Assembly (NCBI GenBank): GCA_012270385.1
Contig: JAAXIK010000188.1
Span: forward strand, 285-32,863
From: Rubripirellula sp.
GTDB lineage: Bacteria > Planctomycetota > Planctomycetia > Pirellulales > Pirellulaceae
Length of the DNA: 32,579 nucleotides
Reading direction: 5' to 3'
Shown one piece after another: positions 3,709 through 29,188 of the stretch (positions within the stretch are counted from its first letter, which is position 1; the number at the start of each line of letters is the position of its first letter). The notes beneath the pieces are model-generated. The model searched no databases. It saw nothing but the letters and a program-made list of their open reading frames with translations, and was not told where the DNA came from. A program made the translations under genes and the position numbers.

Positions 3709-6700
3709 ATGTCCACTGGCAGAAAAACCCTTTTTGCTTTGATCCTTTTCACACTCTCAGCCATCGCGCCGCCAGGTGCGCAGGTTGCGAAAGGTGAGAA
3801 TCGGTTTGCCTACCAAACTGATTACGTTCAGCCATATTATCCACACGGGGAATTCCCCAAACTCATTACCCCTCAGTGGGTTGGAGAAGATGGAGTCGAC
3901 ACGGTCATCACGCTAGGTATCGATGACATGAGAGATACGGCCGCGTATGAAGCTTATCTACGTCCGATTCTCAGGAAGCTCAAGGAAATCGATAACCGAG
4001 CGCCCGTGAGCATCATGACATGCAGCCTCGATCCTCAGGATCCGCAGTTACAACAGTGGCTTAATGAAGGCTTGTCGATTGAGGTGCATACCGCGGATCA
4101 CCCGTGCCCATGCTTGCAAGGTGATAATTTTGATGCCGCAAAATCTACCTACGACCGCTGCGTCGATCTGATGGCATCCATTCCCGGCAATCACCCGGTG
4201 GCATTCCGTACTCCCTGCTGTGACTCTCGAAATACACCGAGCCCGAGATTGTGGAGTGAGATTTTTACCCAGAGAACACCTCAAGGCAATTTTCTCCAAG
4301 CCGATAGCAGTGTGTTTAATGTCTTCACTAAGGAAGACAAAGAGCTACCACCGGAATGGACGACCGATGCCAACGGGCAGTCGCGTTTCAGGAAATACAT
4401 CCCCTTCCCGTCCTTCGTCAACACGATCGAAAACTACCCCTATCCGTACGTGATCGGAAAACGTTGTTGGCAGTTTCCTTGCATGGTTCCTAGTGACTGG
4501 GAGGCACAGAACCTGCATCAACCCAATAATCCAGTGACCGTAGAGGATATGAAAGTTGCATTGGACGCAACCGTTCTAAAAAAAGGAATGTTCAACCTCG
4601 TCTTCCATCCTCATGGTTGGATCAAGAATGAGCAAGTCGTTGAGTTAATCGAATACGCTGATAAAAAATACGGCAAGCGGATTAAGTTCCTGAATTTCAA
4701 AGAGTGCGTGGATCGAATCAACAAACACCTTCTGCTTGACCAACCCATCAGAGCTCCCGAAACTGGAAGCGACAACGGAGTTCGATTGGTCGATGTCAAT
4801 GAAGATGGCTTTCTCGACGTACTGATCGGCAACGAATCAAATCGCACTTTGCGTCTTTGGAAGCCCAATGCGATGAACTGGCAGGATACTGAACACGGTA
4901 TCCAATTCACATCATCAACATCAACGCACTCCACTCACTTTGCACCGCAAATCGGAAAGATCGACCCAGAGTCAAGCTTTTCGGTGCTCGTCAACCATGA
5001 ACATGATCAAGCAATCTACGATTTTTCTGTTGATTCCATCCGACGAACACCACTTCCCGTGGAATTGAAGCAGGTCAAGACATCCGTTGCGGGGTTAGAT
5101 CAAGGAATCCGCCTCCGTGATATGGACAGGGATGGTCACAGCGAACTGATCATCGCCAATCCAAAGCGTCAGGCCGTATTGAGGCGAAACGAAAAGGGAC
5201 AATGGAAAGAAGTGGGTTCATTCCCAGCGGCCATCGTCGATGCGAATGGAAAGGATAATGGAGTGCGTTTCATTGATGTTGACGAAGACGGCAATGAAGA
5301 TGTCATCTTCAATAACGGAAAGGATGCAGGCATCTATCTCTTCGATGCAAAAACAAAGCTATTCTCCCGAAAAGTAGAAACCCCGAGTGACCTACCCCTT
5401 ATTGTCCGCAATGGCACCAACAATGGGGTATGGTTTGCGAAGAAACATCTCTGGGTACAGAACGAAAACACTAATCGATTACCCGACGGTGTCGATCGTC
5501 GATCTTTTCAAGATCTACTCGGCAGCACAGAACCAGGTCCAAGAGACCCTCAGGAATCTCGGCCGTCGATTCAGGGGCCAGCAGGCTCTCGAGTGGAGCG
5601 GGTCGCCGCGGAACCGCTGGGGATGGAGCCGAGTGCGATGGACTGGGGAGCCGATGGGAAGCTCTGGGTGGTGGAAATGGCCGACTACCCGCTTGGCCTT
5701 GATGATCAGGGGAAACCCGGAGGTAGGGTGCGTTTCTTGGAGGACAGCGATGGAGACGGACTCTATGACAAGTCCACGCTATTCCTCGATGGCATCGCCT
5801 ATCCAACAGGCATCATGGCGTGGCAGGATGGTGTGCTCATCAGCGCAGCCCCGAGTATTTTCTTCGCCGCCGATCGTAATGGAGATGGCGTAGCGGAGAC
5901 GATTGAAGAAAGATTCAAAGGTTTTGCCGAGGGAAACCAACAACACCGAGTGAACGGCTTTGAAAGAGGGCTTGATAATTGGATCTATGTTGCCAACGGC
6001 GATAGCGGTGGTGAAATCGAGTCCATCAAAACCGGTCAGAGATTATCACTTGGAGGTCAGGATCTCAGAATCCTCCCAGAACGTGGCATCATGGAACTGC
6101 AAACAGGACGAACGCAGTTTGGGAGACATCGCGATGACCACGGCAATTGGTTCGGCTGCAGTAATCCGCTGCCTGTGAGGCACTTCGTTCTGGCAGATCA
6201 TTACACACGGCGTAATCCCTTCCTTACTTTTCCAAGTCCTCGTCTAGATATCGCGCGAGTGGATAACACTCAGCTATTCCCAATCTCTCGTATTCTCAGT
6301 CATTGGTCCGGTTACCGTCCTCCAGAATCAGGAGCTGGACATCAATTCACATCCGCTTGCAGCACAAGCATCTACCGCGACGATCTCTTTGGCAAAGATT
6401 TCAATGGCGATACGTTCACCTGTGCTCCTGTTCATAACTTGGTTCATCGCCGAAAGCTCATTCCAGACGGAATATCCTTCCAGAGCATTCGTCCGAAAGA
6501 ACTTGCTAATCAAGAGTTCCTTGCATCGACCGATAGCTGGTTTCGACCAGCAACTGTAACCACGGGGCCCGAAGGTGCATTGTGGGTTGTTGACATGTAT
6601 CGGTTGGTGATTGAGCATCCAGAGTGGATCGATGACCAAAGAGAGAAGGAACTTTTTCTTCGTGCGGGTTGCGATCAGGGCAGAATCTACCGTGTGCTCC

Positions 6701-25423: not shown

Positions 25424-26674
25424 ATGGAGCCAAACATGGGACACATCAATCGCCGCCGAATTTTGCAGGGAACAGGAATCGCGTTGACGCTTCCGCGGCT
25501 AGAGAGTCTTTCTGCAAAAAACCATCCCACCCCTCAAGCACCTCGTCGATTAGTATGCGTCGGGAACCATTTGGGTTTTTACCCGGGGCATTTCTTCCCC
25601 GAAGCGTCGGGAAAGAACTTTGAATTAACATCGACTTTAAAGCCACTCCAAGCGCATCGAAATGAGTTAACGGTTTTTTCCAATCTGGATCATGGTCTAA
25701 ATGGTGGTCATAAGGCGGTCCAAGGATTCCTAACGGGGATCAAAAAAGAGGAAGCTGCTGGATTTGCTGAGAAAAATATCTCGCTTGATCAGGCCGCTGC
25801 CGAGTCCGTGGGAAGCTCCACACGTTTTCCCTCGATCAATACCGGCATCACGGAAGGAACCGATATGTGCTGGACTCGGTCAGGAGTCCATCTCCCACCG
25901 ATCAATAACCCGGCAACTCTCTTCCGTGGGCTCTTTATCGATTCAGCGCCCTCCGAACGTGCAGCAGAACGGGAACGATTGCAACATCGTGCCAGCGTGT
26001 TGGACTCACTCCGAGAATCTGCCACAACACTCAATAGCACGCTGGGTGCCGCGGACCAAAGAAAGCTAGACCAGTATCTGACCTCCATACGCGATGTGGA
26101 ACGGCGGCTTCAAATGTCCAGACAGTGGATCGATCGCCCAAAGCCACAATCACCTATCAAGGAAGTCGCTGACGAAGAGCGTCAACACATCGACCAAGTG
26201 GGGCTATTTTATGACCTCATTGCACTTGCTCTTCATACGGATTCCACGCGAGTGGCAACCTTGGAAACCGGACTAGGATTCCAAACCGCTGAGTTAAACC
26301 TCGATATCTACCACCATATCTCACACCAAGGGAAATCCGAAGGTCGAATCGAACAACTACAAGTCATCGAAGCTTTCCTAACCACAAAGCTTGCCAACTT
26401 CATGTCCAAGCTAAAAGAGATGGAAATCCTCAACGATACCCTGATTGTTTTCGGAAGTGGGATGAGTGATGCTTCAAGTCATAGCAATCGGAACCTACCC
26501 GTCCTTCTTGCTGGTGGAGCCCTAAGTCATCAGGGTCATCTCATCTGCCCGGTTGAACAACCGCGACGAATCCCTCTCTCCAATCTTTGGCTATCGGTGC
26601 TCAACTGGTTTGGTTCCGAAAGAGATCGCTTCGGCAGGAGCACAGGCACTTTCTCCGCAATGAAAATTGGTTAA
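25424..26674 (+). CDS. DUF1552 family secreted protein
   Basis: A 416-aa protein with a twin-arginine-like N-terminus (NRRRILQGTGIALTLPRLESL). The start at 25424 has an AGGG about 7 nt upstream; a second ATG four codons on is possible. Body motifs are typical of DUF1552: RRLVCVGNHLGFYPGHFFPE, SNLDHGLNGGHKAVQGFLTG, LDQAAAESVG..FPSI, LDQYLTSIRDVERRL, LIALALHTDSTRVATLE and LIVFGSGMSDASSHSNRNLPVLLAGG. The family is thought to be related to DUF1501 and has no proven activity. It is the usual partner of the DUF1592-type gene, whose start lies within a few bases of its stop. Confidence 0.92.
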   Translation: MEPNMGHINRRRILQGTGIALTLPRLESLSAKNHPTPQAPRRLVCVGNHLGFYPGHFFPEASGKNFELTSTLKPLQAHRNELTVFSNLDHGLNGGHKAVQGFLTGIKKEEAAGFAEKNISLDQAAAESVGSSTRFPSINTGITEGTDMCWTRSGVHLPPINNPATLFRGLFIDSAPSERAAERERLQHRASVLDSLRESATTLNSTLGAADQRKLDQYLTSIRDVERRLQMSRQWIDRPKPQSPIKEVADEERQHIDQVGLFYDLIALALHTDSTRVATLETGLGFQTAELNLDIYHHISHQGKSEGRIEQLQVIEAFLTTKLANFMSKLKEMEILNDTLIVFGSGMSDASSHSNRNLPVLLAGGALSHQGHLICPVEQPRRIPLSNLWLSVLNWFGSERDRFGRSTGTFSAMKIG

Positions 26675-26686
26675 TCGGTGGGCACC

Positions 26687-29188
26687 ATGAAACTCGCAAT
26701 CTTGTCGATCTGCATGGCTTCCGCCCTCCAATCAAGTGGACAAGCGAAAGAAGCCATCCATGCTTTTTTAGACAGGCACTGTATCGAGTGCCATCGCGTG
26801 AGTGAGTCGAACGGAGACCGCCGCTTTGACAACCTCCCCGTTCGCATTGAAAGCACTAATGATCTAGAACGCTACCAAGAAATTGTTGATCAGTTAAACC
26901 TTGGGGCGATGCCCCCAGAAGATTCCCCACAACCTACCGTTAAACAACGCAGAGCAGTGATTGCTCAATTAACGGAGATGATCGATAACGCCTACGGGGA
27001 GCTGAATCTTTCTGGGGGACATGCGGTCCTGAGAAGGCTGAACTCGTGGGAGTACCGTCAGACACTCGGTGATTTGCTTGGAATTAACGTCGAACTGTGG
27101 GATCCCACCGAGAAATTCCCTCGTGAAGTGACCGTCGGTGGCCTTGATAACAACGGTAACTCTCTCGTGACTTCTGGGACTTTGATGGAGCATTATTTTG
27201 CCTCAGCTGAAGAGGCAATTCATCGTGCAACTCAGTTTCAGGAAAAGCCGCAAACAAGATTCTATCAACAAAAATCCCCGTTCTACTTTGAAGGCGAAGA
27301 AGCGAAAGGACTACCAAAACTTTTCCAAACGGGTCGCTTCCGCTGGATACCCAAAACACCTTACACCGACCTGCTCGGCCGCCATTACCGTGGAGGTCAT
27401 CTGGGTTTCTTGCCCCTATTCCGTGAGGGAGGAGTTCCTCATAGCGGGATCTATCGCGTGCGTGTCAAAGCTGCAGCGTTAGGTCGAACGCATGACTATG
27501 GCAAAGCGATTAGTGACTTCCGTAATGGAGACCCGTTGGTTCTGGAACTTGCAGCAGTAGATCGCCGAGGCAGTGTCACGAGCAACGGCAATGTGTCGAA
27601 AATGAAATCGTTAGAGAGAATTGAGCTCACTAATGAAGAACCTCAATGGTTTCAATGGGATGTTCACCTTGATGAAGGTTACGAGCCTGAAATTCGTTTC
27701 CGAAATGGACCGATTGCCGCAAAGCGTATGGTACGTCTACTTACGTCGGTCACACCTGATAAACCCGAGTTCCAACCTTTTATTGATCTAGAAGATAAAC
27801 TCCAAAGAGCACGAGGTGTGCTCGCAGCCTATCAGGGCCCAAGGCTTCGCATTTGGGAAATCCAAGTCGAAGGGCCTTACCTTGAGCAATGGCCATCGCA
27901 GGGTCACCACACGCTTTACGGTGATTTACAGCCAAGCGATTTCAACGACCAGAATCTCCGAACTCAACTCACACAATTTGCACTCAAAGCTTTCCGACAA
28001 CCTCAAGTCAACGCGGCATCGACAAAGCCCGGCACACAAAAGCTTTTGGATGCCCTGGAACCCATCGTTCAACTTGCACTTCGTAAAATGGACCAGGGCA
28101 TGGATCCGCTGAAGGCCTATCAACTGGGTTGCCAAGCAATTCTTTGCTCACCAACCTTTCTCTACCTAGATCTAGGTGAAGGAGAATTAGCGGACATATC
28201 CTTGGCATCACGACTTTCCTATTTCCTTTGGTCGTCATCACCTGACGCAATTCTTTTGGAGCTCGCTGCAAAGGGTAAGCTGCGAGAGAATCTGAGTGAG
28301 CAGGTACACCGAATGCTTGAGTCCCCCAAAGCCGATCGGTTTGTTCAGCATTTCGTTCGACGATGGCTGGATTTAGATCACATCGGTGAGATGCCGCCAT
28401 CGGAGGATTTCATCCAGTACTACCGGGACAATCTGGGCTCAGCGATGCTTGGCGAAACCAGACGTTTCTTTAAGCATTTACTCGACACCAACCAACCTCC
28501 TGTAGAATTGATCAAAGCGAATTACTCCTTCCTCAACAGAGAATTAGCGATTCACTACGGTATCGATGGAATCGAGGGCAATCATCTCCGTTTAGTAGAA
28601 TTCACTGATGGGGAGGTAACTCGAGGCGGCTTACTGTGTCAATGTTCCTTTCTTAATGCTTCGTCAAATGGAGTGGACAACTAACCAGTGGTACGGTGAT
28701 TGTATGTATTAGAAAAGCTGCTGGGTTACACACCCCCACCGCCTCCACCTGATGTTCCAGCAATCGAACCGGATATCCGAGGAACGCTTACCTTAAGGGA
28801 TCAACTGGAAAAGCACAGGGAGATCCCCACCTGTAATGAATGTCATCGCAAAATCGATCCTTTGGGATTTGCATTCGAACACTTCGATGCGATTGGACAC
28901 TGGCGAGATCAGTACAGCTCTCGGACACCTATTGATGTATCAGGAAGACTACCGTCAGGAAAAAGCTTCTATGATTTCTCACAATTCAAACAACTACTGA
29001 TCGATCAAGAAGCACAAATCAATCGGTGTCTAGCAGAGAAACTGATGGCCTATGCTTTAGGGCGGGAAATAGAAATAGGTGATCGACCATCGATCGATGC
29101 AATTCTCCGTGAACTGCAGAAATCCGAAGGTGGGCTTCGGGACTTGATCACTCGAATCGTCATGAGCGATTCTTTTGGAACGAATTAA
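26687..29188 (+). pseudogene. DUF1587-DUF1592-DUF1588-DUF1585 PVC cytochrome protein, interrupted by two in-frame stops
   Basis: An exported heme protein that should be about 830 aa. After the signal peptide comes a heme motif C32-I-E-C35-H36. DUF1587 follows (LRRLNSWEYRQTLGDLLGINVE), then DUF1592 (LSYFLWSSSPDAILLELAAKGKL..FVRRWLDLDHIGEMPP), then DUF1588. Inside DUF1588 the frame meets TAA at 28682-28684 and TGA at 28697-28699. It then continues unchanged: YVLEKLLGYTPPPPPPDVP, CNECHRKIDPLGFAFEHFDAIG and a complete DUF1585 to 29188. The conserved text around the stops should read roughly DTSPVVRG; both stops are one base from Ser and Gly codons. GTG at 26678 is an alternative start. It is the partner of DUF1552. 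Recent inactivation or sequence error is likelier than recoding, because TGA ends several other genes here. Confidence 0.85.

Follow-up and report, generated by a model that had tools for sequence, protein, structure and literature searches.

A patch of 66 bp that interrupts a PSD/PSCyt-family gene probably consists of uncorrected base-call errors in a thinly covered draft consensus rather than of the organism's own sequence, and an intact DUF1588 gene is most likely present in the organism itself. On the sequence evidence, the patch is most likely a draft-assembly artefact, though not one of oxidative damage in particular, rather than a real biological feature. The window, i.e., the whole stretch of DNA that was analysed, comprises 32.6 kb from a planctomycete-like draft genome (G000: 5.1 Mb, 553 contigs, 89.9% complete). 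This source genome is fragmented and contains gaps of 10 N, and a run of 26 N (G000:C458:259-284) stands directly before base 1 of the window.

The gene and the interruptions within it are as follows.

26678-29188, plus strand: PSD/PSCyt-family gene, read through two in-frame stops; the orthologues (L025-L029, L032-L038) are uninterrupted
28637-28702, plus strand: error-like patch; six departures from conserved columns, each a single G>T or C>A step
28682-28684, plus strand: in-frame TAA, where 10/10 orthologues have Ser
28697-28699, plus strand: in-frame TGA, where 9/10 orthologues have Gly

As written, the gene is split into two open reading frames (26678-28684 and 28700-29188). Pfam places PSCyt1, DUF1587, DUF1595 (below its cut-off) and DUF1592 on the 5' side of the stops, with DUF1588 (from profile position 28) and DUF1585 on the 3' side, and DUF1588 is matched as a whole domain once the stops are read through. 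By this domain order, which is as expected, the gene is a PSD/PSCyt multi-domain protein of the DUF1588 family. Planctomycete PSD/PSCyt proteins (PF07635, PF07626, PF07637, PF07631, PF07627, PF07624) share the same order, whereas the window gene differs from its orthologues in being interrupted by two stops. A DUF1501/DUF1552-like gene lies directly upstream (25424-26674), which is the usual arrangement for the family.

Public draft genomes (L025-L029) and same-genus genomes (L032-L038) supplied the orthologues, ten of which (60-64% identity) were aligned; none of the ten contains a stop. The frame at approximately 28601-28732 reads RGGLL-CQCSFLNASSNGVDN-stop-PVVR-stop-L-YVLEKLLG, and is open and conserved on either side of the patch. 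The orthologues read R-G-G-L-[LIM]-[GST]-[QH]-G-[SA]-[FL]-L-T-A-S-A-N-G-V-D-T-S-P-V-V-R-G-I-Y (the last G being S in one orthologue), against R-G-G-L-L-C-Q-C-S-F-L-N-A-S-S-N-G-V-D-N-stop-P-V-V-R-stop-L-Y in the window. Six departures, comprising four missense and two nonsense changes, are explained by single G>T or C>A steps, while 28 G or C positions in the 66 bp are unchanged.

28643: Gly>Cys, GGT>TGT
28656: Thr>Asn, ACT>AAT
28664: Ala>Ser, GCA>TCA
28680: Thr>Asn, ACC>AAC
28683: Ser>stop, TCA>TAA
28697: Gly>stop, GGA>TGA

An earlier note on this DNA had described a cluster of changes with two stops inside an intact and conserved frame, and the frame, the Pfam matches and the ten-orthologue alignment bear this out. 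It had also counted eight single G>T or C>A changes against an assumed family consensus. Five of these are well supported, as is a sixth at 28664, an Ala>Ser change which the note had missed by assuming S-S-N where 10/10 orthologues have S-A-N. The remaining three do not stand. At 28649 the supposed Val>Phe departure is no departure, given that F or L is the orthologue residue; the change at 28637 is compatible with the class, but its column is variable (G, S or T in the orthologues) and therefore uninformative; and at 28700 the gene does depart from the Ile of all ten orthologues, but TTG is two steps away from it, so that the pattern fits only if the ancestor had Val. On the note's own criterion, by which the same residues in close relatives would count against its reading, the outcome is split: those at 28643, 28656, 28664 and 28680 are not shared, whereas that at 28649 is.

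Near-invariant columns were defined as those conserved in at least 9/10 orthologues. The patch holds 19 such columns with 7 departures, 6 of them single-step, and all six are G>T or C>A. Over the rest of the gene there are 394 near-invariant columns and 42 departures, of which 32 are single-step and only six of the 32 could belong to this class (Fisher p = 3.3e-4 for patch against rest); the types there are mixed, with G>A the commonest. The earlier note's suggestion to count substitution types by alignment with homologues has thus returned a single class in the patch and mixed types over the rest of the gene. Six G>T/C>A departures within 57 bp were not reproduced in any of 20,000 permutations. 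The cluster in the given sequence is real and statistically solid. Close relatives lack the patch changes, which occupy no more than the length of a read and leave the frame intact on both sides.

These counts bear on whether the gene is a genuine young pseudogene, in which selection on the DUF1588 protein was lost and two nonsense and four missense changes became fixed. Neutral decay would spread over the 2.5 kb with mixed types and indels, whereas here the frame is intact, departures elsewhere are ordinary, and the six informative changes in 57 bp are all of one class; disablements and relaxed constraint of mixed types spread over the gene were not found. In addition, a RecQ-like helicase and sulfatases of the same genome also show patches or stops. 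Loss of one copy would be tolerable among dozens of paralogues (47 DUF1588 copies), and interrupted genes are frequent in G000, but on balance we consider a pseudogene unlikely.

The reading of the patch as consensus error draws on comparable patches that interrupt conserved genes elsewhere in G000, the clearest of which lies in the helicase.

Approximately 3565 in L118 (G000:C431), minus strand: RecQ-like helicase with a scrambled DEAH-box segment, six clustered substitutions plus TGA

Six aligned helicase orthologues (65-77% identity) are intact and read L-L-A-[VI]-D-E-A-H-C-V-S-E-W; the G000 gene reads stop-L-A-V-E-D-A-R-F-G-S-E-W, with the changes within approximately 40 bp and the flanks intact. 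The simplest steps are T>G (Leu>stop), T>G (Asp>Glu), G>T (Glu>Asp), A>G (His>Arg), G>T (Cys>Phe) and T>G (Val>Gly), so that up to five of the six fit an exchange of G and T, with alternatives existing for Asp>Glu and Glu>Asp. Two further patches were found on contig C92. In one gene (L217, approximately 3692), which is 84% identical to its G006 relative, Ile>Ser, Tyr>stop and Ile>Ser stand close together and are compatible with T>G, other changes also being present. A second gene (L217, approximately 8475; 61% identity to the G006 relative) carries clustered T>A, G>T and G>C changes and a stop. The patches in G000 are alike in that each is short and dense, preserves the frame and falls on conserved sites, but the G>T/C>A class is not common to all of them; the types in the other patches are mixed (T>G, T>A, G>C and some transitions).

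Two readings would place the changes in the living cell. One is a real recurrent process of the lineage that makes dense local transversion patches in otherwise intact genes and so breaks several conserved genes without indels; we regard it as very improbable. The other is a single localised event that left clustered G:C>T:A transversions in the population sampled, which would suit the tight, single-class clustering in the DUF1588 gene. Such a variant would need to prevail in that population although it ruins a conserved gene, and the other patches in G000 differ in type, so we give it a very slight chance. To our knowledge, no process produces G>T in alternation with C>A within 60 bp.

Interrupted genes were also surveyed across the genome and its relatives. 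The 46 remaining DUF1588 copies of G000 are all free of stops. Among sulfatases, an in-frame stop is present in 8/129 copies in G000 vs. 0/124 in the same-genus genome G015 (Fisher p = 0.007). DUF1501 copies with an in-frame stop number 3/65 in G000, and among the matches listed for G015, G017 and G006 there were none, which is a weaker control than the sulfatases. Stops crossed by alignments to at least two homologues numbered 13 in 855 kb of G000, a few of them on weak homology. In the same kind of scan, three relatives (655 kb in all) yielded a single clear crossed stop, isolated, in a G006 gene with intact neighbours; the ratio of 13 to one is only indicative, given that the genome's own paralogues in the comparison set ease detection in G000 relative to the controls. 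True pseudogenes may be among the interrupted genes surveyed. One of the 13 crossed stops lies in a second gene of this same window.

1476-2513 (3' end approximate), plus strand: metallophosphoesterase-like gene, interrupted by an in-frame TAA at 2172-2174 that alignments cross

Its frame is homologous on both sides of the TAA, and the loops flanking the stop are too variable for the ancestral codon to be inferred. Elsewhere, a stretch of another contig (G000:C368:20001-40000; L116) contains four interrupted genes within 15 kb, with stops at 4156, 9483, 15853 and 18164, one of them lying some 30 bases beyond a 10-N gap; the stretch resembles G006:C432 in part.

Similar patches thus occur elsewhere in the G000 assembly and are rarer in other assemblies. 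That dense short patches affect several conserved genes in a single fragmented draft, and hardly any in its relatives, argues for consensus errors rather than biology. A library or assembly artefact, one of the origins that the earlier note had offered, is the best-supported reading, with comparable patches interrupting other conserved genes of this genome and being rare in relatives.

Several other approaches were tried and set aside. Phasing errors, in which the called base equals a neighbouring base, did not explain the G>T changes when checked by eye. Copying of the patch from a paralogue was dismissed, there being no second near-identical copy in G000. A genome-wide search for departure clusters by paralogue consensus covered only 7,846 conserved columns and found divergent domains and no patches, and a scan for interrupted genes by codon usage could not separate coding from shadow frames, the bias being too weak. 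The helicase patch did appear in a trio test with two relatives; the geometry of the trio makes G000 the outlier, and the excess of clusters specific to G000 is not clean evidence.

If the patch is an error, the draft genome contains false pseudogenes: approximately 6% of its sulfatases would pass for broken genes, and any gene tally or inference of gene loss drawn from G000 would be wrong. Sulfatase gene counts from this draft are probably affected, and premature stops in G000 should not be read as gene loss. If the patch is real, an unusual process of clustered mutation would have to be invoked, and nothing in the data requires one.

Under the preferred reading of consensus error, the changes would have arisen in the reads and would then have survived into the consensus because the draft metagenome was thinly covered. 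The most economical route would be confusion between bases imaged in the same Illumina channel (G with T, A with C), since this would yield both G>T and C>A on one strand. On two-colour instruments, G (dark) would become T, and C (red) would become A, through a stray green signal. Because assemblers normally remove a single bad read, coverage must be assumed to have been locally thin or made up of duplicated reads. Changes of the G<>T/A<>C kind account for 6/6 in the DUF1588 patch and up to 5/6 in the helicase patch; with mixed types in the other patches, a single cause for all of them, chemical or optical, is not demonstrated. The sequence GGCGGC occurs directly upstream of the patch (28625-28630), GGC being a reported trigger of sequence-specific Illumina errors.

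The earlier note had named oxidative damage as a possible cause, and this is not favoured here. Such 8-oxoguanine damage would have arisen before or during library preparation, been copied by PCR and then assembled. The G>T artefact that it leaves in libraries belongs to the same transversion class, G:C to T:A, as each of the six informative changes in the patch. However, when one damaged strand is copied, either G>T or C>A appears but not both, whereas the patch alternates the two along one strand (GT, CA, GT, CA, CA, GT). Six lesions within 57 bp of one molecule would also be extreme, and the other patches, with T>G, T>A and G>C, are of other classes. According to PMC12390751, ex vivo 8-oxoG produces G>T without matching C>A at a locus, and this asymmetry identifies ex vivo oxidation. 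The patch, with three G>T and three C>A changes, lacks the expected strand asymmetry, and an oxidative origin is accordingly rated as distinctly unlikely.

Known sequencing errors offer another comparison. Four-colour Illumina chemistry reads A and C with one laser and G and T with a second, and the most frequent miscall of C in MiSeq data is A, that of G being T (Schirmer et al., 2015; PMC4381044). Published Illumina errors are read-level and mostly removed in the consensus, whereas the putative errors of the patch sit in an assembled contig, and the other G000 patches differ from the same-channel pattern in also containing cross-pair changes. The two changes of the DUF1588 patch, G>T and C>A, are both miscalls within a channel pair (PMC4381044), and both are possible on one read strand.
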